Below the pieces are notes generated by a model. It had not been told where the DNA came from and ran no database searches. It saw nothing but the letters and a program-made list of their open reading frames with translations. Below, piece by piece: positions 10,037 to 22,865 of a stretch of DNA of 46,298 bases. Positions within the stretch are counted from its first letter, which is position 1; every line of letters begins with the position of its first letter. The stretch comes from Alphaproteobacteria bacterium MarineAlpha9_Bin3. GTDB lineage: Bacteria > Pseudomonadota > Alphaproteobacteria > TMED109. The position numbers and the translations under genes are program-made. The stretch covers positions 1-46,298 of the forward strand of contig PTKH01000008.1 in the NCBI GenBank assembly GCA_002937655.1, in the 5' to 3' direction.

Positions 10037-10222
10037 ATGATCAAATATTATATTATTTTAATTTTTTTAAGTTCCTCTTTTTTAATAGCTGGCCCATTAG
10101 ATATAGAGTCAATAAAAAATGAATGCTTAAAGAAATATAAAAACGAAAGTTCAGAGGAATATACTGAATGCTTAAAAATTAAAATTAATAACATTTTATA
10201 TAAAAAAGAAGAAAATTTATAA
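10037..10222 (+). CDS. small exported two-cysteine protein, unknown
   Basis: The 61-residue product has an N-terminal signal-like hydrophobic segment (about 3-18, ending LIAG) and a short helical, charged mature part with two Cys 15 residues apart (NECLKKY and TECLKIK). This would suit a disulphide-linked helical hairpin in the periplasm. No lipobox and no family is recognised. The ribosome site is poor. It lies 79 nt before the phosphonate operon and points the same way, so it could be its first gene or an independent one. The coding call rests on the clean signal-peptide pattern and the Cys pair. Confidence 0.5.
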   Translation: MIKYYIILIFLSSSFLIAGPLDIESIKNECLKKYKNESSEEYTECLKIKINNILYKKEENL

Positions 10223-10301: not shown

Positions 10302-11123
10302 ATGGAAAATAAGGTAGAAGCTAATTTAAAATTTATAGTTCCGCAAGATAGTAAGCCCTTTTTTGAAAGCTCAGAATATACGGGAACAGTTCCTAAAATT
10401 CATTTTAAAACTGAATACAGATCTGTGAATATATTAGATATAAGAAAAAGTATATCGAAATTTACGTTTGAGAAAAATGGTTTTGAGTTATTAAACCATA
10501 AATCTTCAATAAAAGATTTTTATAATCATAACGAAGTAAAAAAAATATATGGTAATGAATTAAAAATTTTTTTAATTGAACGTTTTAATGCAAACGAAGT
10601 GTTTATCTTTGATTATACTAGAAGATCAGATGGAACAAAAGGAGCTAAAAATCCAGATGGTCTCAGAGGTCCTGCAGATAGACTTCATGCTGATTATACA
10701 GATATTTCAGGTCCACAAAGAGCTAAAGATGTTTTAGGCGTTGATTCATATAATAAAATAATCGATCAAGGCGGAAGAATTGTGCAGTTAAATATTTGGA
10801 GGCCTATAAATGGTCCTATAAAGAGATCTCCATTAGCTTTTGCAGATGCAGCTTCAATACCTAAAAGTGATTTAGTTGAAACAGATCAAATTTTTACTAA
10901 TCGTACCGGAGAAATATACCACATATCATACTCTAAGAAACATAAATGGTATTGGGTTCCCAATATGACTGATGATGAGATTCTACTTTTAAAAGGATGG
11001 GACAGTCATGATGAAGAAGTGATAAAGTATACGCCTCACGGAGCATTTGAATTACCTAATCAATCTGAAAGTCATCCTCCAAGAGAAAGTATTGAGGCAA
11101 GGATTTTTCTTGTTTTTAATTAA
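10302..11123 (+). CDS. CmcJ/NvfI-like non-heme Fe(II)/2-oxoglutarate oxygenase family protein
   Basis: The start is ATG 10302 with AGAGG six bases upstream; an in-frame TTG lies two codons earlier. The 273-residue protein matches the CmcJ/NvfI/GA4-desaturase-like family known mainly from fungal and actinobacterial secondary metabolism. Signatures are LHADYTD (putative iron ligands H129 and D131), VQLNIWRPINGP, a central GEIYHISYSKKHKWYWVPNM, DSHDEEVIKYTPHGAFELP (third ligand H246), and PRESIEAR with R261 or R267 as the likely 2-oxoglutarate-binding Arg. It starts an eight-gene operon that contains PhnDCE and PhnY/PhnZ homologues. Hydroxylation or desaturation of an organophosphonate or its carbon moiety is therefore plausible but inferred. 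This family is unusual in a streamlined marine genome. Confidence 0.75.
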   Translation: MENKVEANLKFIVPQDSKPFFESSEYTGTVPKIHFKTEYRSVNILDIRKSISKFTFEKNGFELLNHKSSIKDFYNHNEVKKIYGNELKIFLIERFNANEVFIFDYTRRSDGTKGAKNPDGLRGPADRLHADYTDISGPQRAKDVLGVDSYNKIIDQGGRIVQLNIWRPINGPIKRSPLAFADAASIPKSDLVETDQIFTNRTGEIYHISYSKKHKWYWVPNMTDDEILLLKGWDSHDEEVIKYTPHGAFELPNQSESHPPRESIEARIFLVFN

Positions 11124-11141
11124 AACTAATAAGGATAAATA

Positions 11142-12347
11142 ATGATAATTAATAATGTATCTCTTATTAGATACACTGGTTTAATGGAAGTAGACGGGCT
11201 TTTATGGGAAGATAGGCTCGCAACTCCATTAGATATTTATGAAGAGTATGCAAATTCATTAAATGCCACAGCAGATTTTGTTCAGTCTAAAAATGGTAAA
11301 TTAGCTTTGGATCATATATTTGTAAAAATAGAAACTGAAGATAAAATTACAGGCTTAGCAGGCCCCATGAATAGTAATGTAGCATTTATAATAGCTAAGC
11401 AATTAAAACAGATTCTAATCGGTAAAAATGTTTTTGCCACAGAGTTAATATGGGATCAAATGTATAGAAAATTAGTTCATGGTCGACAAGGAGAACCTAT
11501 TTGGGCAATAAGCTTTATTGACTGTGCCTTATGGGATTTAAAAGGTAAAATTTTAAATCAACCAGTTTATAAATTATTAGGAGGAGCTACAGTTCAAAAA
11601 ATTCCTGCTTATGCAAGTATGCTGGGTTTCAATGTTTTAGATATGGAGTTAGTTAAAAAGAGAGCTTTAGAATATAAATCAAAAGGATTTAAAGCGCAAA
11701 AATGGTTTTTTAGATATGGTCCTGCAAAAGGCCTTGAGGGACTTAATAAAAATATAGAACTAGTAAAAAATTTGAGAGAGACATTAGGAAATGATTATGA
11801 ACTTATGTTTGATTGTTGGCAAAGTATGGATGTTCCATATGTTTTATCCTTAATAAATTCTATCAAGAAATATAATCCTAAATGGTTAGAAGAATGCGCT
11901 ATGCCAGATAGAATAGATAGTTATATAAGAATAAAAGAAAAAACTAATATTCCTCTCGCTGGAGCGGAACATCACTATACTAGATGGGGAATCAATCAAT
12001 TTATTTCGAAAGGTGCATTAGATATCATTCAAGCTGACGCACATTGGTGTGGAGGTATTTCTGAAATGATTAAAATTAGTGCTTTATGTACTACTCATGA
12101 CTTAATATTCATTCCGCATGCTGGTGCTATGCATTCTGGTGTACATTTTTCATTTAGTCAGTCTCCTGCACATACTCCAATGATAGAATACTTAGTTAAA
12201 TGGATGCCCATACTGCAACATTTTAGTGAAGATCAAATTAAAGTTGAAAATGGATATATCCATTTACCTGAAAACACAATTGGACTTGGGGTAAATATAG
12301 ATAATAATAAAATTATAAACCAAGAATATATATATGATAAGGAATAA
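11142..12347 (+). CDS. enolase-superfamily protein, L-rhamnonate-dehydratase-like
   Basis: The 401-residue protein belongs to the mandelate racemase/muconate lactonizing enzyme group. The capping domain is about 1-130, and the barrel follows. Metal ligands are visible as D224 (MFDCW), E250 (LEECAMP) and E276 (AGAEHHYTRWG). IIQADAHWCGG carries the Asp of the His-Asp dyad (D299), and IPHAGAMHSG the catalytic His (H326). KAQKWFFRYGP and TRWGINQF are most like the L-rhamnonate dehydratase branch, which removes water from acid sugars. It is 18 nt after the oxygenase gene and only 2 nt before phnD. This context suggests an acid-sugar or hydroxy-acid moiety attached to, or released from, the imported phosphonate. 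The substrate is not determinable by reading. Confidence 0.82.
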   Translation: MIINNVSLIRYTGLMEVDGLLWEDRLATPLDIYEEYANSLNATADFVQSKNGKLALDHIFVKIETEDKITGLAGPMNSNVAFIIAKQLKQILIGKNVFATELIWDQMYRKLVHGRQGEPIWAISFIDCALWDLKGKILNQPVYKLLGGATVQKIPAYASMLGFNVLDMELVKKRALEYKSKGFKAQKWFFRYGPAKGLEGLNKNIELVKNLRETLGNDYELMFDCWQSMDVPYVLSLINSIKKYNPKWLEECAMPDRIDSYIRIKEKTNIPLAGAEHHYTRWGINQFISKGALDIIQADAHWCGGISEMIKISALCTTHDLIFIPHAGAMHSGVHFSFSQSPAHTPMIEYLVKWMPILQHFSEDQIKVENGYIHLPENTIGLGVNIDNNKIINQEYIYDKE

Positions 12348-12349
12348 GC

Positions 12350-13267
12350 ATGAGTATATATATAAAAATTTTAATAGTTTTTATTTTTTTTACTATTAAA
12401 TTTTCTAATGCTGCTGATGGTACAAAATCAAATCCATTCAATGTACTGCTTGTGCCAGCAGATGGAGGTACAGAAGAGGGGACAATCGCAGATTTTAAAC
12501 CTATTTTTAATGCATTAACAAAAGCCACAAAATATTCATTTAATATAATTGTTGGTCAAAGTTATAGTGCTGTAGTTGAGGGAATATGTTCTGGACTTGC
12601 AGATTTTGCTTGGTTTGGTCCTGTAACATATGTTCAGGCAAGAGAGCGAGGATGTGTAGAACTCTTAGCTGTAGAAGTAAGAAAAGGTAGCTCTGTATAT
12701 TATTCAGGTATATTTACTAAAAAAGATAATATACATATTAGTTCATTAGAAGATTTAAAAAATAAAAAAGTTGCTTTTGGGGATATTAATTCTACTTCGA
12801 GTTTTGTTTTTCCCATGGCAATGTTATTAGAAGCAGGTATTGATCCTATTATAGACTTATCTAAATCTCAACTTACTGGTAGCCATGCAAATAGTCTGAA
12901 AGCTTTACAAGCAGGAATTGTTGATGCAGCAGCATCTTCTTTTAATTCTTATGAAAAAGCAGTAAGACAGGGTTCAATAGATAAAGATGATTTTAAGGTT
13001 ATTGCCAAATCAGATCCTATACCAAATCCTCCATTAGCTATGTCTATTAAACTTCCTGATTTGGTAAAAATAGCAATAAAAAATGAGGTAGCTAACCTAC
13101 ATAATAATCCAAATATAAAAGAAGGCATGCTTAGAGGTTATGGAGGTAAAAAGGTAGATTATTATGACACAAATATATCAGATGCAGATATGTTGCCTGC
13201 TTTAAAAAAAATGGCATTAATAGATAATAATTTTAAACTATCTATCATTGAAGCTAATAATAAATAA
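12350..13267 (+). CDS. phnD: phosphonate ABC transporter, periplasmic binding protein PhnD
   Basis: The 305-residue protein has a signal peptide of about 21 residues (ends KFSNA). It then shows the PhnD-type receptor pattern: FNVLLVPADGG near the N terminus, VVEGICSGLADFAWFGPVTY (the anion-binding loop region), and DLKNKKVAFGDINSTSSF. The family binds phosphonates, phosphite or related oxyanions. The acidic extension GGTEEGTIADFKP near the first strand sits where the aminoalkyl or alkyl group contacts occur and may tune specificity. SD AAGGA precedes the ATG, and the gene overlaps phnC by one base (TAATG). Position between a dehydratase and phnC makes phosphonate uptake very likely. Confidence 0.9.
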   Translation: MSIYIKILIVFIFFTIKFSNAADGTKSNPFNVLLVPADGGTEEGTIADFKPIFNALTKATKYSFNIIVGQSYSAVVEGICSGLADFAWFGPVTYVQARERGCVELLAVEVRKGSSVYYSGIFTKKDNIHISSLEDLKNKKVAFGDINSTSSFVFPMAMLLEAGIDPIIDLSKSQLTGSHANSLKALQAGIVDAAASSFNSYEKAVRQGSIDKDDFKVIAKSDPIPNPPLAMSIKLPDLVKIAIKNEVANLHNNPNIKEGMLRGYGGKKVDYYDTNISDADMLPALKKMALIDNNFKLSIIEANNK

Positions 13268-14004
13268 TGGTTTATCCATTATTGAAAATTGAATCAGTTA
13301 GCAAAATTTATCCTGGGAATGTATTAGCTTTAAATAACGTTAATATAAATATTGATGATAATGAAATAATTGCTATTTTAGGATCTTCAGGTTCAGGAAA
13401 GTCGACATTAATTAGAACAATTTTAGGTTTAACTGCTTTAAATTATGGAAATATATTTTTTAGAAATAATAATTATAAAGATAAAAACTATAAAATGATT
13501 AGAAACTCTGTAGCTACAATCTATCAAAATTTTAATTTAGTAACTCGTTCCTCCATTATAAAAAATATTATATTAGGAGATATAGCAAAAGTTTCGTCTT
13601 GGAGAGTATTATTTAATTTATGGCCTAAAGAGACTATAAATAAAGCTATAGATATAATAGAAGAAGTAGGTTTAAATAATATTGATTGTAATAAAAGAGT
13701 AGAAAATTTATCAGGAGGACAACAGCAAAGAGTAGGGATAGCTAGAGCTTTAATAAGCGCACCTGATATAATTTTAGCTGATGAACCTGTCTCAAACCTC
13801 GATCCACAAACTGCTAGAGATATATTGAGATTAATAAGAGAAACAGCAAAAAAAAATAAAATTAGTGTTTTATGCAGTCTTCATCAGGTCGATTTTGCTA
13901 AGAATTTTGCAGATAGAATTATAGGTATGAAAGAAGGGAATATATTGTTTGATAAGCCTGCTAAAAAAATACTTAAATTTGATTTAAACAAATTATATAA
14001 ATAA
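13267..14004 (+). CDS. phnC: phosphonate ABC transporter ATPase PhnC
   Basis: The 245-residue ABC ATPase has Walker A GSSGSGKST, Q-loop in TIYQNFNLV, signature LSGGQQQR, Walker B IILADEP followed by SNLDP, and an H-loop in SLHQVDFA. The segment NIILGDIAKVSSWRVLFNLWPKE is characteristic of PhnC, distinguishing it from other import ATPases. It energises import with the neighbouring PhnE. Translation is coupled to phnD through a one-base stop/start overlap, and phnE begins 11 nt later. Confidence 0.93.
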   Translation: MVYPLLKIESVSKIYPGNVLALNNVNINIDDNEIIAILGSSGSGKSTLIRTILGLTALNYGNIFFRNNNYKDKNYKMIRNSVATIYQNFNLVTRSSIIKNIILGDIAKVSSWRVLFNLWPKETINKAIDIIEEVGLNNIDCNKRVENLSGGQQQRVGIARALISAPDIILADEPVSNLDPQTARDILRLIRETAKKNKISVLCSLHQVDFAKNFADRIIGMKEGNILFDKPAKKILKFDLNKLYK

Positions 14005-14015
14005 TAAATATTTTT

Positions 14016-15020
14016 ATGTTAGCTAATAATAAAAAATTAAAACCACCATTTAATTATAAAACTATTGTTTTAGTTTTATTAATATTCTTTATATTTATTT
14101 TTTCTTTTCAACGAGTTGGCATGCCCGATATAGTAGATAGGTTATATGAAGTTACACTAGATGTCATTGGGCTAAAAGAGACGTCAAAAATAAGTGAAGG
14201 ATTATCCAGAATTTCCGATGAAATGTGGCCTCCTGCAATAGAAACTAAAAAAGATATAAATTTAATTTTAAATTTTGATGCATCAAATTTACCTTTTTAT
14301 TCATATATAGAAAACCAAAAAGTTCAATTATATGAGACGAATATTGAAACTTTAGAATTAGAATCAAGAGAAGAAGAAGTATTATTTTTAGTAGAGCCTT
14401 TTGGATATTTAAAAGTAGTTATTATAAAGATAATAGAAAGCATTGAAATAGCTTTTTGGGCAAGTTTCATAGCTTTAATTATTTCTATACCTTTAGCTTT
14501 TTATTCTGCTAAAAATTATACACCGAATAGGATAGTTTATTATTTAAGTAGAAGTATAGTATCTGGTTTAAGAGCAATTCCAGAATTAATAAGTGTATTA
14601 TTTATGGTTTTAGCTTTTGGCTTTGGTCCAGCAGCTGGTATTATGGCTCTAGGGCTTCATAGTGCTGGTTTTTTAGGTAAATTTTTTGCTGAAGATATAG
14701 AAAATGCTGATAAAGGCCCTCAGGAAGCATTACAAGCGCTGGGTTCATCAAGATGGAGGATAATAAAAGAGGCTGTTTTACCTCAGATTATGCCTCAGTA
14801 TATAGCGTATATTTTATATATTCTTGATAGAAATTTGAGAATGGCTACTGTTATTGGTTTGGTAGGTGGTGGAGGAATAGGTCAGGAACTAAAAGGTCGT
14901 TTTGATTTATTTGAGTACGGACATGTAACAACAATAATTATTGTAATATTTATAGTTGTATTTATATTCGATCAAATTTCTGCTAAATTAAGAAATAAAC
15001 TGATAGGGAATTCTTCTTGA
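14016..15020 (+). CDS. phnE: phosphonate ABC transporter permease PhnE, with N-terminal extracytoplasmic insert
   Basis: This is an inner-membrane permease of the BPD type with the EAA loop EALQALGSSRWRIIKEAVLP and downstream GLVGGGGIGQEL. At 334 residues it is longer than a typical PhnE (about 260-280). The first membrane segment (about 14-33) is followed by roughly 90 polar residues before the next membrane segment near residue 135. This makes a soluble loop probably in the periplasm. The gene follows phnC by 11 nt with a poor ribosome site, so coupling is likely. Its stop overlaps the TTG start of phnY in TTGA. Only one permease gene is present, so it should act as a homodimer. Confidence 0.9.
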   Translation: MLANNKKLKPPFNYKTIVLVLLIFFIFIFSFQRVGMPDIVDRLYEVTLDVIGLKETSKISEGLSRISDEMWPPAIETKKDINLILNFDASNLPFYSYIENQKVQLYETNIETLELESREEEVLFLVEPFGYLKVVIIKIIESIEIAFWASFIALIISIPLAFYSAKNYTPNRIVYYLSRSIVSGLRAIPELISVLFMVLAFGFGPAAGIMALGLHSAGFLGKFFAEDIENADKGPQEALQALGSSRWRIIKEAVLPQIMPQYIAYILYILDRNLRMATVIGLVGGGGIGQELKGRFDLFEYGHVTTIIIVIFIVVFIFDQISAKLRNKLIGNSS

Positions 15021-15784
15021 GGATAGATACAGGGCAAATAACTGATAAACAAATAAAAAGTTGGAATACTTATGGTTATGTTTATTGTTTTAGTCATTTA
15101 AAAAAAAATATATCTCAATATATACAATCAGTTAAAGAAATAGAAAGTTTAAATAAAAAAAATAGAAAAAGTTTATTTTATTATGAAGAAGTTGAAGGAT
15201 TACCAAAACTATGCCGTATAGAAAAATTTTTAGAAGATAATAAATTTTTAAAAAAACAAATACTAGGTGAAGATATTTTAGGATATATAAATAAACTTAA
15301 TTCCAAGTCTTTCTATTTGTATAAAGAAAAGATAAATATTAAATTTCCTGGCGGTTCTGGGTATTCAGCACATCAAGATGCAACAGCTTATCATAAATTA
15401 AAAGGCCATATTACTTGTTTAATAGCTTTAACTGAAATGAACCAAGAAAATGGATGTTTATATATTTCTAAATTAAAAAATAACAATGAGTTATTATCTT
15501 ATGATAAAAATGGCTGTATAGAAAAAAGTCTAGATAAAAAGCTTTTATGGCAGCCAATCATAATGTCTAAAGGTGATTGTCTATTTTTTAATTCATATTT
15601 ACCTCATAAGAGTGAAAAGAATATATCCAATAAGGAGAGAAAAGCAATATATCTTACTTTTAATTTACGTTCAGAAGGCAATTTAAGAGATAAGTATTAT
15701 CAAAGTAGAGAGAAGTCTTTAAATTTAAATACAGATAGAATTAGTACTATTGGACACTTTAAAGGAAAAAAATTATTTAGGTAA
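15017..15784 (+). CDS. phnY: PhnY-like Fe(II)/2-oxoglutarate phosphonate dioxygenase
   Basis: The 255-residue protein belongs to the PhyH (phytanoyl-CoA dioxygenase) family. Iron ligands are H119 and D121 in YSAHQDATAYH, and H197 in YLPHKSEKN. R208 in KERKAIYLTFN binds 2-oxoglutarate. PhnY hydroxylates C1 of a phosphonate (2-aminoethylphosphonate in the founding case, methylphosphonate or its N-trimethyl analogue in relatives) so that PhnZ can cleave it. The TTG start at 15017 overlaps the phnE stop and has TAGGGA seven bases upstream. Lying directly between phnE and a phnZ homologue, it is the expected first enzyme of oxidative C-P cleavage. The actual substrate may differ. Confidence 0.85.
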   Translation: MRIDTGQITDKQIKSWNTYGYVYCFSHLKKNISQYIQSVKEIESLNKKNRKSLFYYEEVEGLPKLCRIEKFLEDNKFLKKQILGEDILGYINKLNSKSFYLYKEKINIKFPGGSGYSAHQDATAYHKLKGHITCLIALTEMNQENGCLYISKLKNNNELLSYDKNGCIEKSLDKKLLWQPIIMSKGDCLFFNSYLPHKSEKNISNKERKAIYLTFNLRSEGNLRDKYYQSREKSLNLNTDRISTIGHFKGKKLFR

Positions 15785-15788
15785 ATTA

Positions 15789-16379
15789 ATGCGTATTGAC
15801 ACAGAAAATATAAATATAAACCAATTTACTAATAAATTATTTAACTGGATGAAAGGTCAAGGAAAGACAAAGTATGATGAAAGTGTTACACAACTAGAAC
15901 ATAGTATTCAAACTGCAATGTTAGCTAAAAAATTTAATGCTAAATCTAGTTTAATTGTAGCATCATTATTACATGATATTGGCCATTTAATATTAAATGA
16001 AAATGAATCTAAAATAGATTTTTTAAACTATGATTTAAATCATGAAATGGTAGGAGCAAAATGGCTAGAAAAAAAATTTCCAAAATCTGTGACAGAACCA
16101 ATTAAACTTCATGTGCCTGCTAAGCGCTATTTATGTACTATTAAAAAAAACTATTATGAAAAATTATCTTTTTCTTCTAAAAAGAGTTTTAATCTTCAAG
16201 GGGGAATAATGAACGCTGAAGAAAAAAATGAATTTATTAATAATAAATATTATAAGGATGCATTAAAACTTAGGACATGGGATGAAAAAGCAAAAAGAAA
16301 AAATATGATTTTAACCCCTATTAATGACTTTAAAAAAGATATATTAAGAGTAATAAAAAAGGAAAGTATTAATGACTGA
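15789..16379 (+). CDS. phnZ: PhnZ-like HD-domain mixed-valent diiron phosphonate oxygenase
   Basis: The start chosen is ATG 15789, four bases after phnY stops; an in-frame ATG at 15750 would overlap phnY by 35 nt. The 196-residue protein has every expected diiron ligand of the PhnZ/MIOX-like HD group: H38 (QLEHS), H62-D63 (LLHDIGHL), H85 (NHEMVG), H108 (KLHVPAKRYL) and D165 (LRTWDEKAK). PhnZ oxidatively splits a 1-hydroxyphosphonate into phosphate and a carboxylate. The substrate-lid Glu is kept (E31). The position matching Tyr24 of the 2-aminoethylphosphonate enzyme is Lys28 with Tyr at 29, by my hand alignment, which hints at a different substrate. The gene overlaps the CitE-like gene by 8 nt. 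Confidence 0.88.
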   Translation: MRIDTENININQFTNKLFNWMKGQGKTKYDESVTQLEHSIQTAMLAKKFNAKSSLIVASLLHDIGHLILNENESKIDFLNYDLNHEMVGAKWLEKKFPKSVTEPIKLHVPAKRYLCTIKKNYYEKLSFSSKKSFNLQGGIMNAEEKNEFINNKYYKDALKLRTWDEKAKRKNMILTPINDFKKDILRVIKKESIND

Positions 16380-17220
16380 TAATGAGTATATTCAGAAAAG
16401 AAGAAGTTTTATTTTTTGTCCTGGAAATAAACCTGATATGATTCCAAAAGCTTTATCATCGGGCGCAGATATGGTTTGTATAGACCTTGAAGATGCAATA
16501 ATTCCTGATCATAAAGATATTTCTAGATTGTCAACTATAAAAGCATTTGAAAATATATCTATTCCAAGCGGGGTAGAGACACTTATAAGAATTAATGATG
16601 TTAATAGCAAAGATGGCAAAGAAGATATAAAAGCTATTTTAAATAGCTCGGAAACAGCATCTGGTTTGATGTTACCTAAAATACAAAGTGTTGATGAGGT
16701 AATAGATTTAGAAAATCAAATTAAATTATCTAACAAAGATTTAAATCTGCATATTATAATTGAAACTAATAAAGCTCTAGAAAATGCGTGGAATATTGCT
16801 CATTCAAGCCCTCTAATTAAATCTTTATTATTTGGTGGAGTAGATATGAGTGCGGATTTAGGGTGTAACGGTGATTGGATGTCTTTACTATATGCTAGGT
16901 CTAGGGTAGTGCATGCAGCTGCAGGAGCAGGATTAGATGCTATTGATGTTCCTTTTCTAAATTTAGAAGATATGCAAGGTATGCAAGATGAAGCACAAAA
17001 ATCAAAAAATTTAGGTTTTTCTGGAAAAGGTTCAATCCATCCTAAACAAATTGCAATATTAAATAATGTATTTACCCCTTCGGAAGAAGAGGTTGAGTAT
17101 GCAAACAAGGTAATTAATGCTTTCAGAGATGCTAGCGATGGTTTGGTTGTAGTTGATGGTAAATTAATTGAAAAGCCTGTACTAAGAACTGTTTTAAAAA
17201 TTATTGCAAACAGCAAATAG
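16372..17220 (+). CDS. CitE-like / HpcH-HpaI aldolase family lyase
   Basis: The 282-residue TIM-barrel protein is of the citrate lyase beta/malyl-CoA lyase family. Signatures are RRSFIFCPGNKPDMIPKAL, the metal-site CIDLEDAI, IRINDVNSKDG with the CoA-contact Arg, IIETNKALENAW with the second metal acid, FGGVDMSADLG, and GKGSIHPKQI. Members cleave or hydrolyse malyl-CoA-type thioesters or catalyse aldol reactions with Mg2+. The ATG overlaps the end of phnZ by 8 nt, so it is part of the phosphonate operon and is its last gene. It may process the carbon product left after C-P cleavage or dehydration. The stop is directly adjacent to the convergent crotonase stop, with no room for a terminator. 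Confidence 0.85.
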   Translation: MTDNEYIQKRRSFIFCPGNKPDMIPKALSSGADMVCIDLEDAIIPDHKDISRLSTIKAFENISIPSGVETLIRINDVNSKDGKEDIKAILNSSETASGLMLPKIQSVDEVIDLENQIKLSNKDLNLHIIIETNKALENAWNIAHSSPLIKSLLFGGVDMSADLGCNGDWMSLLYARSRVVHAAAGAGLDAIDVPFLNLEDMQGMQDEAQKSKNLGFSGKGSIHPKQIAILNNVFTPSEEEVEYANKVINAFRDASDGLVVVDGKLIEKPVLRTVLKIIANSK

Positions 17221-17998: not shown

Positions 17999-19564
17999 TT
18001 AACTAACTTGTTTATCATGACCTTTCCAGAAAGGTTCTCTTAATGTTGTCTTTAAAATTTTTCCTGCACCAGAAAGAGGCATTGGTTCGTCTCTAAATGA
18101 TACAGACTTAGGGCATTTAAATCCTGCAATTAAATCTTTACTATGAGAAATTACTTCATCTTCATTTATATTTTTATTGGGATCTTTTCTAACTATTGCA
18201 TGAACTGTCTCTCCCCATTCTTCATTAGGAATACCTATTACAGCACACTCTATAACTCCATCTAGTTGATAAATTGCATTTTCAACTTCTGCTGAATATA
18301 TATTCTCACCGCCTGATATAATCATATCTTTTACTCTATCAACTATATAAACGTAACCTTCTTCATTCATATATCCTCCATCACCAGTATGCATCCAACC
18401 GTTTAAAAGTGCTTTATCACTTAATTCTTTTTGTCTCCAGTAGCCGAGCATGACATTAGGCCCTCTTGCAGCAACTTCTCCTACTTCACCTCTTGGAACT
18501 TCATTATCATTTTCGTCAATAATTTTTACTTCAACACCTGGAACAGCCACCCCAGTAGACTTAAATAAATTTGCTTTAGGTCCATCAAAAACATGACAAT
18601 CAGGTCCTGCAGATGTTATTAATGGAGCACATTCCGTCATACCATATGCATGAGTAAATTTGCATTTAGGTATAACTTCCATTGCTTTAATTATTACAGA
18701 TTCTGGCATAGGAGAAGCACCATAAGCAATTTGTCTTAATGATGATAAGTCATATTTATTAATATCTGGGTGATGAACTAGCATATTTATCATTGTAGGA
18801 ACTAAAAGTGTGTCTGTAATAGAGTAATCTTGAAAAGATCTTAAAACACCTTCTGGAGTATAAGAAGGAATAAAATAATGTTGTCCAGCAATATGAGTTA
18901 TAGCAATTGCGCCAGTTACATCTGCAATATGAAACATTGGAGCAGCATGAAGCCAACGAGCATTTGTTGGAATGTTTAGAGCTGTTATGGTGTTAAAAGA
19001 GTTAGAAACTAAATTTGTGTGACTAAGCATAACTCCTTTTGATCTGCCAGTTGTTCCTCCAGTATAAAATAAACCAGCTATATCATCTTTGCATCTTAGT
19101 TTATCTTCTATTTTAGAGGATTCTTTTAATATATTCTCATAATTATGCATATTTTTAGGACAATCTCCGTCTGACATATATATGATTTCTTTCACTGATG
19201 GTATTTTACCTTCTGACCTTAATTTTTCGACAATTTCTGCAAAGGCTTTATCTACAAATAATATAGAACTCTCACTATCGTTTAACCAAAATTCTATTTC
19301 AGGTGGTGCCAGTCTTGTATTTATGGGAACAAAAATACCGCCAGCCCATACTGCTGCATACAAAGCTTCAAAATAACGATCGCTATTTAGAGATAAAATA
19401 GCTGATCTGTCATTATCAGAAAAACCTAATTTTTCCATAGCCCCCGCAAGCTTACTTATTCTTTCGATTGATTCTGACCATGTTCTTATTCTATCTCCAT
19501 CTTGAGTAGCTATTTGTTTTCCGTTAATTTGATCAGCTCTTTTTAGCGCTTGAGTTAAATACAA
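17999..19564 (-). CDS. acyl-CoA synthetase (AMP-forming)
   Basis: The 521-residue ANL-superfamily ligase activates a carboxylic acid through an acyl-adenylate to the CoA ester. Core motifs are FYTGGTTGRSKGVMLSH (P-loop, A3), HAYGMTECAPL (A5), GWMHTGDGGYMNEEGYVYI (A7), and SGGENIYSAEVE. The catalytic Lys is in the C-terminal GAGKILKTTLRE (A10). It starts at TTG 19564, with GGAGA six bases upstream. The overall pattern is of the FadD3/FadD13-like medium- or long-chain class; substrate specificity cannot be read. It is followed 13 nt later by the crotonase gene. Confidence 0.88.
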   Translation of the reverse strand: MYLTQALKRADQINGKQIATQDGDRIRTWSESIERISKLAGAMEKLGFSDNDRSAILSLNSDRYFEALYAAVWAGGIFVPINTRLAPPEIEFWLNDSESSILFVDKAFAEIVEKLRSEGKIPSVKEIIYMSDGDCPKNMHNYENILKESSKIEDKLRCKDDIAGLFYTGGTTGRSKGVMLSHTNLVSNSFNTITALNIPTNARWLHAAPMFHIADVTGAIAITHIAGQHYFIPSYTPEGVLRSFQDYSITDTLLVPTMINMLVHHPDINKYDLSSLRQIAYGASPMPESVIIKAMEVIPKCKFTHAYGMTECAPLITSAGPDCHVFDGPKANLFKSTGVAVPGVEVKIIDENDNEVPRGEVGEVAARGPNVMLGYWRQKELSDKALLNGWMHTGDGGYMNEEGYVYIVDRVKDMIISGGENIYSAEVENAIYQLDGVIECAVIGIPNEEWGETVHAIVRKDPNKNINEDEVISHSKDLIAGFKCPKSVSFRDEPMPLSGAGKILKTTLREPFWKGHDKQVS

Positions 19565-19637
19565 TGTAAATCTCCAAAAAATATTTATATGCTATCTTAT
19601 CTTAACCTTATTCTTATAATTAAAATACAGATTATGT

Positions 19638-20852
19638 TTATAGAACAATCTTTTTATTTTGCAAAATTTTAATTTCTTCATTTGTATAACCTAATTCTTT
19701 TAAAATTTCTACATTGTGCTCACCTAATTTTGGAGCTTTTGTAGCATTTTTTCTAGGAGCATTTTCAATATTTAAAGGGGGTGAAATTATTTTTAAATCT
19801 TTAATGCTTTCACCAGTTATATTCATAAACATATTATTTAAATTTGTTTGTGGGTCGCTAATGGTATTCTCTGTTTGGGTTATTTTAGTAAATACTATTC
19901 CTGTATCAATAAGTTTTTTTCTTACATCATCATAAGAATATTTTAAGAATTCTTTTTGTAAAATTTTCTTTAACTCTTTTTTATTATTTTGTCTGTTATT
20001 TTTTGTATTGAATTTGGAACTTTCATTTAGAGACTCTAAATTTAAACTTCTCAAGAATGGTTGCCAATGTTTTTCTTCGTTAGTAAGAAGCATAAAAAAT
20101 AAAGATTTATCTTTAAGATTATAAATATTTCTCATAGCGCTTAATGTGTCCCAATGAAAAGTATCTATTGGTTTGTGACCAGATAATACAGCCTGAATTA
20201 ACATAGCGTTTGACCATATACCATTTGCTAAGAGGGACGTGGTAACAGTTGTACCTAATCCAGTTTTATCTCTATTCATTAATGCTAACAAAATAGAAGT
20301 AAATAGAGATAATCCAGTTGGGTGATCTCCTCCGCCTGGAATAGGAAAAGGAGGTATTTTATCTAACTCATTTATTTTTGACCAATCCATTAAACCTGAT
20401 CTAGCAAAATATGCTGTAGAATCTAAACCTGTTCTATCTGAGTCAGGACCATTTTCTCCAAAAGCTGATAGTGAAGCATATATTATTCTAGAATTTATCT
20501 TTCTTATAACCTTATCTGTTAATCCAAGTTTTTTTCTAGGTGTTTTAGGAAGGTTAGTAACAAAAACGTCAGCTTCTAATATTAATTTATTTAATATCGC
20601 TTGTCCTTCTTTTGATTTAAGATCAATAGATAGGCTTCTTTTATTTCTATTTTCTAGTATAAATGCCCAATCAATATCACTTTCTGGCCAAACATGCCCT
20701 CCAATTACAGCTTCCCTATATGTATCTCCTGTAAGCGGTTCAATTTTAATTACTTCCGCACCGTAATCAGACATAAGTGCGCTCACTAAGGGAGCAGCTA
20801 TAAAACTTGCGGCGTCAATTACTTTTATTCCTTTAAGAGGTAAGTTTTCCAA
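19638..20852 (-). CDS. family III CoA transferase (CaiB/BaiF type)
   Basis: The 404-residue protein is of the CaiB/BaiF/formyl-CoA transferase family, which moves CoA between carboxylic acids. It has the N-terminal LPLKGIKVIDAASFIAAPL, YGAEVIKIEPLTGD, NRNKRSLSIDLKSKEG, and the likely catalytic Asp in TGLDSTAYFARSG. The C-terminal LGEHNVEILKELGYTNEEI is the usual end signature. The start appears to be TTG 20852 with a loose AGGG upstream; start confidence is moderate. It leads the minus-strand unit with acyl-CoA synthetase and crotonase (73 nt gap) and is divergent from the monooxygenase gene at 20946. Confidence 0.87.
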   Translation of the reverse strand: MENLPLKGIKVIDAASFIAAPLVSALMSDYGAEVIKIEPLTGDTYREAVIGGHVWPESDIDWAFILENRNKRSLSIDLKSKEGQAILNKLILEADVFVTNLPKTPRKKLGLTDKVIRKINSRIIYASLSAFGENGPDSDRTGLDSTAYFARSGLMDWSKINELDKIPPFPIPGGGDHPTGLSLFTSILLALMNRDKTGLGTTVTTSLLANGIWSNAMLIQAVLSGHKPIDTFHWDTLSAMRNIYNLKDKSLFFMLLTNEEKHWQPFLRSLNLESLNESSKFNTKNNRQNNKKELKKILQKEFLKYSYDDVRKKLIDTGIVFTKITQTENTISDPQTNLNNMFMNITGESIKDLKIISPPLNIENAPRKNATKAPKLGEHNVEILKELGYTNEEIKILQNKKIVL

Positions 20853-20945
20853 AGTTTTATAAGCCCTATAATAAATATATTTAAAATATGATTGTAATAA
20901 AGTATTATAATAATTTAAAGAAAATATTTATTAATTGGAATTTTA

Positions 20946-22865
20946 ATGAAATTAAATTTGTATGATGCTCTCCAGCAACCGAGTGAAATAATTGAAGTAT
21001 TGAATGAAGCTGATATTGCAACTCTTACACTTGTATTATCATACATTACATCAGACCTTAGTTATATAGATAAAATAAGACCATTTGTTAAAGGAGCATT
21101 TGATTACTCTGTAAATGTACCAAGAGAAATATCAAGAGAAATCATTATTAAGTTAATTAAAGAATTAAAAAATAAAGTAAATAAAAACAATAATTTAACT
21201 AAAATAAATATGATTGAAGATAAATATCTATCACAATTAATGAGTGTCGGGGTAGGTACAGAAGTGCCAAATGAATATATACCTATGATGAAAGAAGAGT
21301 TAAATTTTGGTAATAATTCCCCAAGAGATTCATATATAGAAAATATTAAGAAATACAACTCTAAGCCAGATGTAGTTATTATTGGAAGTGGATTGTGTGG
21401 AATTTTAGCAGGTATAAAACTTTCTAAAGCAAAAATTCCATTCACAATAATTGAAAAAAATGACTCAATTGGAGGAACTTGGTATGAAAATACTTATCCA
21501 GGATGCGGAGTAGATACACCAAACCATGTTTATGCTTATTCATTTGAACCTTCTTATGAATGGGAAGAATTTTATTCAAAGAGAGACTCTATTTATAAAT
21601 ATTTAAAGCATTGTGTTAATAAATATAATTTAAATAATAATATAAAGTTTAACACTACTGTAAAAAGTATTGAATATAATGAAAAATTAAAAAAATGGAA
21701 AACCTTAATTATACATGATGATAAAATAAGTACATTAGATTCCAGTATAATAATTAGTGCAGTAGGACAACTAAATAAACCTTCGTTACCTGATATTCAA
21801 GGAATAAGAAATTATAATAAGCCAATTATTCATACAGCTAAATGGGATAAAAATTATAATTTTAAAAATAAGAATATAGCATTAATTGGGACAGGAGCTA
21901 GTGGTATGCAAGTGGCGCCGGAGCTTGCAAAAATTACAAAAAAATTAACTATTTTTCAAAGAACACCGCATTGGATTATCTCTAATCCCAATTATCATCG
22001 TAAATTGACTGATGGTAAAAAATGGGTTTTAGAAAATATACCATATTATGCTAGATGGTATCGCTTACAATTATTTTGGGGTTTTTGTGATGGAATTCAT
22101 GAGTCACTATGTAAAGACCCTAATTGGAATTTCTCTGAAAGATCTATAAATCAAACTAATGATCGCTTTAGAAATAATATGATAAAGCATATAGAGTCTT
22201 TAATAGGATCAAATAAAGAACTCTTAAATAAAGTTATACCTAATTATCCACCTTACGGAAAGAGAATGCTTATGGATAATAATTGGTTTGAAATGTTAAA
22301 TAGAAATAATGTTGCTCTGATAACTGATAAAATAAATTTTATAAATTCTAAAGGAATAACTACAAATAAAAATACTTATGACTTTGATGCAATTGTTACT
22401 GCAACTGGTTTTAATGCTAGTAAAATGATTTGGCCTATTGAGGTTATAGGTAAAAAAGGTATAAATTTACAGGACTACTGGGAAAAAGATAACCCGAAAG
22501 CTAATTTAGGTATTACAGTTCCAAATTTTCCAAATTTTTTTATTATGTACGGTCCTAATACTAACCTTGCTCATGGAGGTAGCATTGTTTTTCATGGAGA
22601 ATGCCAAATAAGGTACATATTAGGTTGTATAAATCTATTACTAGAAAATAAATATAGTATTATGGATTGTAAAACTGAAGTGTATGAAAAGTATAATTCA
22701 AAGTTAGATAAGCAACATGCACAGATGGTATGGACTCATCATAAAGTTGATAGTTGGTATCGAAATAAATCAGGACGAGTCACAACAAATTCGCCTTGGA
22801 GATTAGTTGATTATTGGAGTTTCACAAAAGAACCAAAAGAGAAAGATTATATATTTAGTAAATAA
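20946..22865 (+). CDS. HAPMO-like Baeyer-Villiger / flavin-containing monooxygenase
   Basis: The 639-residue flavoprotein has an N-terminal extension of about 135 residues before the FAD Rossmann motif VVIIGSGLCGILAG. That extension and total length match 4-hydroxyacetophenone monooxygenase-type BVMOs (about 640 residues). The second (NADPH) Rossmann motif is ALIGTGASGMQVAPELA. GGTWYENTYPGCGVDTPNHVY is typical of class B enzymes. The BVMO fingerprint (F-x-G-xxx-H-xxx-W-P/D) reads Y-N-K-P-I-I-H-T-A-K-W-D, so its Phe and Gly are replaced. It probably inserts oxygen next to a ketone or oxidises a heteroatom; substrate unknown. A NIPSNAP-type gene follows 10 nt after. Confidence 0.85.
   Translation: MKLNLYDALQQPSEIIEVLNEADIATLTLVLSYITSDLSYIDKIRPFVKGAFDYSVNVPREISREIIIKLIKELKNKVNKNNNLTKINMIEDKYLSQLMSVGVGTEVPNEYIPMMKEELNFGNNSPRDSYIENIKKYNSKPDVVIIGSGLCGILAGIKLSKAKIPFTIIEKNDSIGGTWYENTYPGCGVDTPNHVYAYSFEPSYEWEEFYSKRDSIYKYLKHCVNKYNLNNNIKFNTTVKSIEYNEKLKKWKTLIIHDDKISTLDSSIIISAVGQLNKPSLPDIQGIRNYNKPIIHTAKWDKNYNFKNKNIALIGTGASGMQVAPELAKITKKLTIFQRTPHWIISNPNYHRKLTDGKKWVLENIPYYARWYRLQLFWGFCDGIHESLCKDPNWNFSERSINQTNDRFRNNMIKHIESLIGSNKELLNKVIPNYPPYGKRMLMDNNWFEMLNRNNVALITDKINFINSKGITTNKNTYDFDAIVTATGFNASKMIWPIEVIGKKGINLQDYWEKDNPKANLGITVPNFPNFFIMYGPNTNLAHGGSIVFHGECQIRYILGCINLLLENKYSIMDCKTEVYEKYNSKLDKQHAQMVWTHHKVDSWYRNKSGRVTTNSPWRLVDYWSFTKEPKEKDYIFSK

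Follow-up and report, generated by a model that had tools for sequence, protein, structure and literature searches.

Introduction

Oxidative release of phosphate from methylphosphonate has been described for PhnY*/PhnZ1 of Gimesia maris and PhnY/PhnZ of Prochlorococcus MIT9301, which convert this substrate to formate and phosphate (PMC10574752, PMC6581173). Here we analyze a 46,298-nt stretch of Alphaproteobacteria bacterium MarineAlpha9_Bin3 (assembly GCA_002937655.1, contig PTKH01000008.1, positions 1 to 46,298 of the forward strand), hereafter the window, in which five genes, phnDCE-phnY-phnZ, lie inside a string of eight. Like the two described systems, the locus encodes a PhyH-family hydroxylase followed by an HD-domain di-iron oxygenase, beside a PtxB/PhnD-type importer (PMC6581173, PMC10574752). 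It differs from them in that its oxygenase pair scores under the equivalog cut-offs, ptxD is not adjacent, and the genes appear to sit inside a resident three-gene operon. The locus also resembles the phosphonate/phosphate islands of HIMB59/AEGEAN-169 and SAR11 (PMC10734472), as phosphorus (P) acquisition genes occupy a fixed position in some relatives only and no obvious mobility genes accompany them. Unlike these islands, it carries an oxidative PhnYZ pair instead of a carbon-phosphorus (C-P) lyase, lies within one operon rather than forming a separate island, and in relatives is occupied by urea or sulfur-oxidation genes.

A sequence-only reading of the window had counted a dehydratase, a CmcJ-type oxygenase and a lyase next to the phn genes among the components of the phosphonate pathway. 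We favor, with a probability of roughly 0.87, the view that phnDCE-phnY-phnZ is a phosphonate cassette nested in a resident cmcJ-enolase-citE operon, and that these extra enzymes are host genes and not parts of a new phosphonate pathway. The observations beneath this view are the gene order, the empty sites, a divergence step at the borders and the lack of phn genes in the remaining genomes of the order. What looks like a pathway from gene order can turn out to be a nested insertion, which is a warning for operon-based function prediction. The locus also offers a specific example, open to testing, of nutrient genes that travel between species as a cassette within a functioning operon; its point of interest is a candidate precise insertion behind a resident promoter. 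If the substrate proposed below is correct, methylphosphonate-type oxidative P scavenging, in which formate and not methane is released, would extend to further small-genome marine alphaproteobacteria.

The eight-gene string and its recurrence in relatives

The genome that holds the window (G000; 1.62 Mb, 96% complete) belongs to an order represented by 28 searchable genomes. The open reading frame (ORF) listing of the window confirmed the following eight ORFs, all on the + strand.

10302-11123, +, cmcJ: CmcJ/NvfI-family Fe(II)/2-oxoglutarate (2OG)-type oxygenase, gene 1 of the putative host operon; present in filled and empty sites
11142-12347, +, enolase: enolase-superfamily, acid-sugar-dehydratase-like protein (PF13378/PF02746), putative host gene 2; contiguous with citE in G010 and G001
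12350-13267, +, phnD: phosphonate/phosphite ATP-binding cassette (ABC) binding protein, cassette gene 1; TIGR01098, 166 bits, above 112
13267-14004, +, phnC: ABC ATPase; TIGR02315, 262.5 bits, cut-off 266.1
14016-15020, +, phnE: ABC permease; TIGR01097, 250 bits, above 217
15017-15784, +, phnY (PhnY*-like): PhyH-family Fe(II)/2OG hydroxylase (PF05721); best model NF052437, 193 bits, cut-off 500
15789-16379, +, phnZ (PhnZ1-like): HD-domain di-iron oxygenase; NF052439 at 201 bits, above TIGR03276 (196) and TmpB (145)
16372-17220, +, citE-like C-C lyase: last gene of the putative host operon (PF03328, HpcH_HpaI); RipC, 226 bits, cut-off 375

Successive genes are separated by 18, 2, -1, 11, -4, 4 and -8 nt. 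The start of phnZ is the ATG at 15789, as in G014; the TTG at 15750 given by the automatic ORF listing is wrong. The same order was found in G014 and G013 (~78-96% protein identity) and in G012, where it is split over two contigs, and because it is repeated in these three genomes it is not a product of chance. The co-directional, tightly packed string of the sequence-only reading is thereby confirmed, and Pfam and NCBIfam profile matches likewise bear out its PhnD-type ABC importer and its PhnY/PhnZ pair for oxidative C-P cleavage.

These data are also what speaks for one pathway of eight genes, with the CmcJ oxygenase, dehydratase and lyase processing a sugar-acid or longer-carbon phosphonate before or after PhnYZ. 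The genes are packed on one strand in an order kept in four genomes, all eight are under purifying selection (dN/dS 0.06-0.32), and the occurrence of marine dissolved phosphonates as polysaccharide esters, discussed in PMC6581173, makes a link to acid sugars chemically thinkable. The distribution of the genes argues strongly in the other direction.

Empty and filled sites

In G010, a genome of the same genus in which the site lies on a 390-kb contig, and in G001, of a sister genus, cmcJ, enolase and citE are contiguous, with no phn genes between them. The flanks are the same in the window, G010 and G001: tenA and an acyl-CoA dehydrogenase gene on the left, and genes for enoyl-CoA hydratase, acyl-CoA synthetase, CoA-transferase and a flavin-containing monooxygenase (FMO) on the right. 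Conversely, phnDCE-phnY-phnZ lies between enolase and citE in four genomes of the genus (G000, G014, G013 and G012). PhnD and PhnZ were found in these same 4 of the 28 genomes of the order, each time at the enolase-citE site, and no match to either was found anywhere in G010 or G001, each ~88% complete. Of the 28 genomes, 15 have CitE orthologues and 20 have CmcJ homologues.

The search for the same order in relatives thus recovered the three flanking genes unlinked to phnDCE-YZ in G010 and G001, an outcome that the sequence-only reading itself had named as one that would refute its proposal. Furthermore, phnD, phnE, phnY, phnZ, cmcJ and citE were all absent from the surroundings of 75 loci with more distantly related enolases (1.1 Mb), the gap is filled by another nutrient cluster in G008, of a different genus, and phnYZ pairs on Dietzia and Rhodococcus plasmids lack each of the three genes. 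Together with the distinct divergence pattern of phnDCE-YZ, described below, and the contrast between CitE in 15 genomes and PhnD/PhnZ in 4, these results do not bear out a role of the dehydratase, the CmcJ oxygenase and the lyase in phosphonate use. We rejected the acid-sugar phosphonate pathway on the strength of the empty sites and the separate cassette history, and regard it as highly improbable.

Divergence history of the cassette

The tree of flank and module proteins was ((G000,G014),(G013,G010)),G012, with the empty-site genome G001 as outgroup. Between G000 and G013, synonymous divergence (pS) was 0.374 [0.336-0.412] in the cassette, 0.620 [0.587-0.667] in the module genes and 0.528 [0.477-0.574] in the flanks, and the bootstrap range of the cassette did not overlap those of module or flanks. 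Between G000 and G014, pS was ~0.30-0.32 in cassette, module and flanks alike. The G013 distance, computed on positions with an identical amino acid in four genomes, was 1.24 [1.06-1.47] times the G014 distance in the cassette and 1.89 [1.65-2.13] times in the host genes. Since rates agree in other genome pairs, the difference reflects transfer of the cassette and not slower evolution. Sliding identity shifts near the phnD start and at the phnZ/citE overlap; G000-G013 identity drops from 89-93% to 75-77% within ~150 nt of the latter border. We conclude that the cassette moved between species. Most likely G013, whose sister G010 is empty, gained it from a relative of G000/G014.

An alternative history starts from an ancestral eight-gene operon from which the five phn genes were precisely lost in G010 and G001, without any insertion. 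G010 lies inside the carrier clade, which requires at least one loss or an extra transfer, and in G012 cassette and host genes are equally diverged (pS = 0.60 in each). However, the outgroup G001 and all other genomes of the order lack PhnD/PhnZ, the cassette of G013 is younger than its host operon, which shows transfer, and a loss in G010 fits a cassette nested in a host operon without contradiction. We consider an ancestral operon improbable. The synonymous sites of G012 are near saturation, and its divergent cassette may be an older gain. PhnY/PhnZ of this basal carrier are only ~56-63% identical to those of the other carriers, a further contrast with the known PhnY*/PhnZ1 systems.

Some observations weigh against a cassette nested in a resident operon. 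G010 and G001 are only ~88% complete, so that the genome-wide absence of phn genes is not absolute; the empty sites themselves do, however, lie on continuous contigs. The G012 cassette may be a separate gain, or ancestral with loss in G010 and G001. The unchanged position in all four carriers could be due to selection that favors expression of the cassette together with its host genes. Upstream of cmcJ and near phnD, the best matches to a Pho box were no better than in shuffled sequences. Finally, the scores fall far short of both NCBIfam methylphosphonate equivalog cut-offs (NF052437, 193/500; NF052439, 201/300), and the substrate is assigned by homology.

Under the nested-cassette view that we prefer, a complete five-gene cassette would have been inserted between resident operon genes 2 and 3, leaving the host genes undamaged, and would have been exchanged among species at an unchanged site, with recombination in the homologous flanks as the probable route. 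Our search for a donor in the rest of the class gave PhnZ identities of up to ~45% and best PhnY identities of 36-38%, and Dietzia/Rhodococcus plasmids gave 37% for PhnZ and 41-42% for PhnY; these identities are so low that we name no donor. PhnZ and CmcJ were not found in viral contigs, nor PhnY in phages. As a separate observation, the C-terminus of G013 cmcJ is 88% identical to that of G012 and 77-78% to those of G000, G014 and G010, and forms a further mosaic patch.

Cassette proteins and predicted substrate

PhnE and the binding protein exceed the cut-offs of their models, as expected for a PhnDCE importer (TIGR01097, 250/217; TIGR01098, 166/112), while the PhnD equivalog TIGR03431 is missed (155 of 261 bits), as is, narrowly, the PhnC model TIGR02315. 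The nearest structure to PhnD is Pm_PtxB (5lv1); the STS-H ligand motif is kept and the capping tyrosine is replaced by proline. In PtxB this tyrosine restricts binding to phosphite (residues from PMC5700983).

PhnY carries the 2-His-1-Asp facial triad and 2OG-binding Arg of the PhyH family, and H119, D121, H197 and R208 are invariant in six sequences, down to 35% identity. Its sole match among phosphonate-oxygenase models is the methylphosphonate hydroxylase NF052437. It does not match the TmpA model NF049936, whereas a control TmpA of the same class scores 474 bits, over the cut-off. PhnZ has the conserved ligands of PhnZ-type HD di-iron oxygenases: the HD-domain histidines and aspartates are kept relative to 4mlm and 6npa, and H38, H62, D63, H85, H108 and D165 are invariant. 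Alone among five PhnZ proteins tested, it ranks the PhnZ1 model first, by 5 bits; in three controls from other Alphaproteobacteria the general PhnZ model outscores PhnZ1 by 43 to 54 bits, and in the Dietzia plasmid protein by 10 bits. Neighbours of PhnZ in other Alphaproteobacteria are TmpA, PhnM or phosphonatase. The YD-ES loop is common to the window PhnZ and the Dietzia PhnZ, whose partner is a PhnY*-like protein.

Our best guess for the substrate, and a reasonably probable one, is methylphosphonate, which would be converted to formate and phosphate as in G. maris and Prochlorococcus MIT9301. The compound imported by PhnDCE would be a small alkylphosphonate, methylphosphonate being the likeliest; PhnY would hydroxylate its alpha-carbon with 2OG and O2; and PhnZ, with O2, would split the C-P bond. 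We therefore describe the pair as one that would work like PhnY*/PhnZ1, and do not file it in the curated equivalogs. The sequence-only reading had noted that PhnY/PhnZ normally suffice for 2-aminoethylphosphonate; by profile ranking, the pair is closest to the methylphosphonate type and not to that type. A different substrate, 2-aminoethylphosphonate or some other phosphonate (PhnY/PhnZ or TmpA/TmpB type), nevertheless has points in its favor: the methylphosphonate cut-offs are not reached, the PhnZ scores are nearly equal (201 vs 196 bits), and the PhnZ of G. maris cleaves the 2-aminoethylphosphonate intermediate as well (PMC10574752). We regard it as unlikely: PhnY has no match to any other phosphonate oxygenase model, whereas the control TmpA has one, the window PhnZ shares its YD-ES loop with the Dietzia protein that partners a PhnY*-like enzyme, and the nearest relative of PhnD is Pm_PtxB, the MIT9301 PtxB preferring methylphosphonate over phosphite (PMC6581173).

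On the Dietzia and Rhodococcus plasmids (L239, L240), the phnY*-like and phnZ genes overlap by 4 nt and adjoin a cobalamin-independent methionine-synthase-II-like gene, another 2OG oxygenase gene and a GPR1/FUN34/YaaH transporter gene. This phosphonate cluster matches no cluster that we recognize.

Borders, candidate promoter and mobility signs

Features at the borders and upstream of cmcJ were as follows.

12338-12354, +, left border: Shine-Dalgarno-like TAAGGAA of the host with an ATG that phnD now uses; site of an identity step
16358-16379, +, right border: last PhnZ codons, overlapping the citE Shine-Dalgarno (AAGGAA) and start codon
10245-10272, +, candidate sigma-70-type promoter of the putative host operon: TTGTAA-16-TATACT
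10037-10222, +, small ORF of 61 amino acids upstream of cmcJ: hydrophobic N-terminal stretch, no Pfam match

The empty site has a single TAAGGAA...ATG (Shine-Dalgarno and start) between enolase and citE, and filled sites have one at each end. The 8-nt overlap of phnZ and citE arises because the window PhnZ extends across the citE Shine-Dalgarno into the start codon. Direct repeats at the borders are confined to AAGGAA-ATG and a 30-nt match that is weak and may be due to chance in AT-rich sequence. The window holds no tRNA gene, and no recombinase is found among the annotated genes of the locus, part of the window ORFs being left unannotated; the classical signs of a mobile island (integrase, transposase or border tRNA) are thus not seen.

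Both a filled site (G014) and an empty one (G010) also show a TTGTAA-16-TATA(A/C)T block upstream of cmcJ. Shuffled sequences contain promoter-like sites at least as often as this region, so that the candidate promoter is proposed from its conservation. Because the region upstream of cmcJ is common to filled and empty sites, the phn genes probably use the host operon promoter. With gaps of a few bases behind a conserved host promoter, the cassette would need no promoter of its own. A scan between the genes gave 3 intrinsic terminators where 1.8 would be expected, and neither cassette border has one. The product of the 61-amino-acid ORF looks secreted, judging from its sequence, and orthologues lie at the same place in G014, G013, G010, G001 and G008 (37% in G008).

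The resident operon

CmcJ scores 252 bits against NF041278 (cut-off 80), placing it in the CmcJ/NvfI subfamily, and its HxD...H and PRES-R pattern aligns with NvfI (7de2). The enolase belongs to the MR_MLE superfamily. It resembles the L-rhamnonate dehydratase subgroup in its metal ligands and His-Asp dyad (D224/E250/E276 and D299/H326, aligned with solved relatives) and in its best NCBIfam model, NF011968, and differs in scoring well under the cut-off (234 of 393 bits). An apparent in-frame stop in the G013 enolase was rejected, being the natural stop two codons early. The CitE-like lyase aligns with CoA-type lyases (best PDB match 3qll) and shares the HpcH_HpaI fold of RipC/CitE citramalyl-CoA-type lyases; a further likeness is the presence, directly downstream, of opposite-strand CoA-pathway genes (acyl-CoA synthetase, CoA-transferase, enoyl-CoA hydratase). 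It falls below the cut-offs of both RipC NF038242 (226/375) and TIGR01588 (186/443), and the itaconate-degradation set was not identified beside it. The host operon likely serves oxidative catabolism of an acid sugar or hydroxy acid unrelated to phosphonate.

Positions 17999-22865 encode an acyl-CoA synthetase, a CaiB-type CoA-transferase and a 639-amino-acid FMO/Baeyer-Villiger monooxygenase-like protein, kept beside citE in relatives with citE here; these proteins could work with the host CitE. Outside its family, the nearest relatives of the enolase (50-55% identity) are mostly proteins of Chloroflexi/SAR202 and other marine metagenome-assembled genomes (L037-L058, from Chloroflexi/SAR202 and Alphaproteobacteria), and the likeness to Chloroflexi hints at an old dehydratase transfer between SAR202-type Chloroflexi and marine Alphaproteobacteria. 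The enolase query gave four enolase-superfamily matches in G000 (C19, C21, C34, C71) and five in G010, many for a small genome.

Other contents of the locus

In G008, the gap between cmcJ and citE holds urtABCDE, ureDABCEFG, a cytochrome c gene and a gene for a flavocytochrome-c sulfide dehydrogenase flavoprotein (L251, 1667-13830). In G013, the stretch between the 61-amino-acid ORF and cmcJ contains a molybdopterin oxidoreductase gene (sulfite-dehydrogenase-like) and a small ORF resembling a cytochrome (L263, 788-2279). Because these two genomes hold other inserts in or beside it, we read the cmcJ-citE locus as a flexible nutrient/energy locus. The same position and flanks with differing content, as in flexible genomic islands, are seen in the empty sites of G010 and G001, the phn genes of four genomes and the urt, ure and sulfide dehydrogenase genes of G008. 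In relatives, the locus would thus also accept other nutrient or energy genes. More tentatively, cmcJ-citE might be a natural "plug-in" site, at which promoter-less nutrient cassettes (for phosphonate in one genus, for urea/urease and sulfide dehydrogenase in another) are swapped between species by recombination in the flanking genes of a resident catabolic operon and expressed at once, with host genes left intact; we hold this to be possible, short of an even chance. In G008, ech beside citE is reduced to a 39-codon match.

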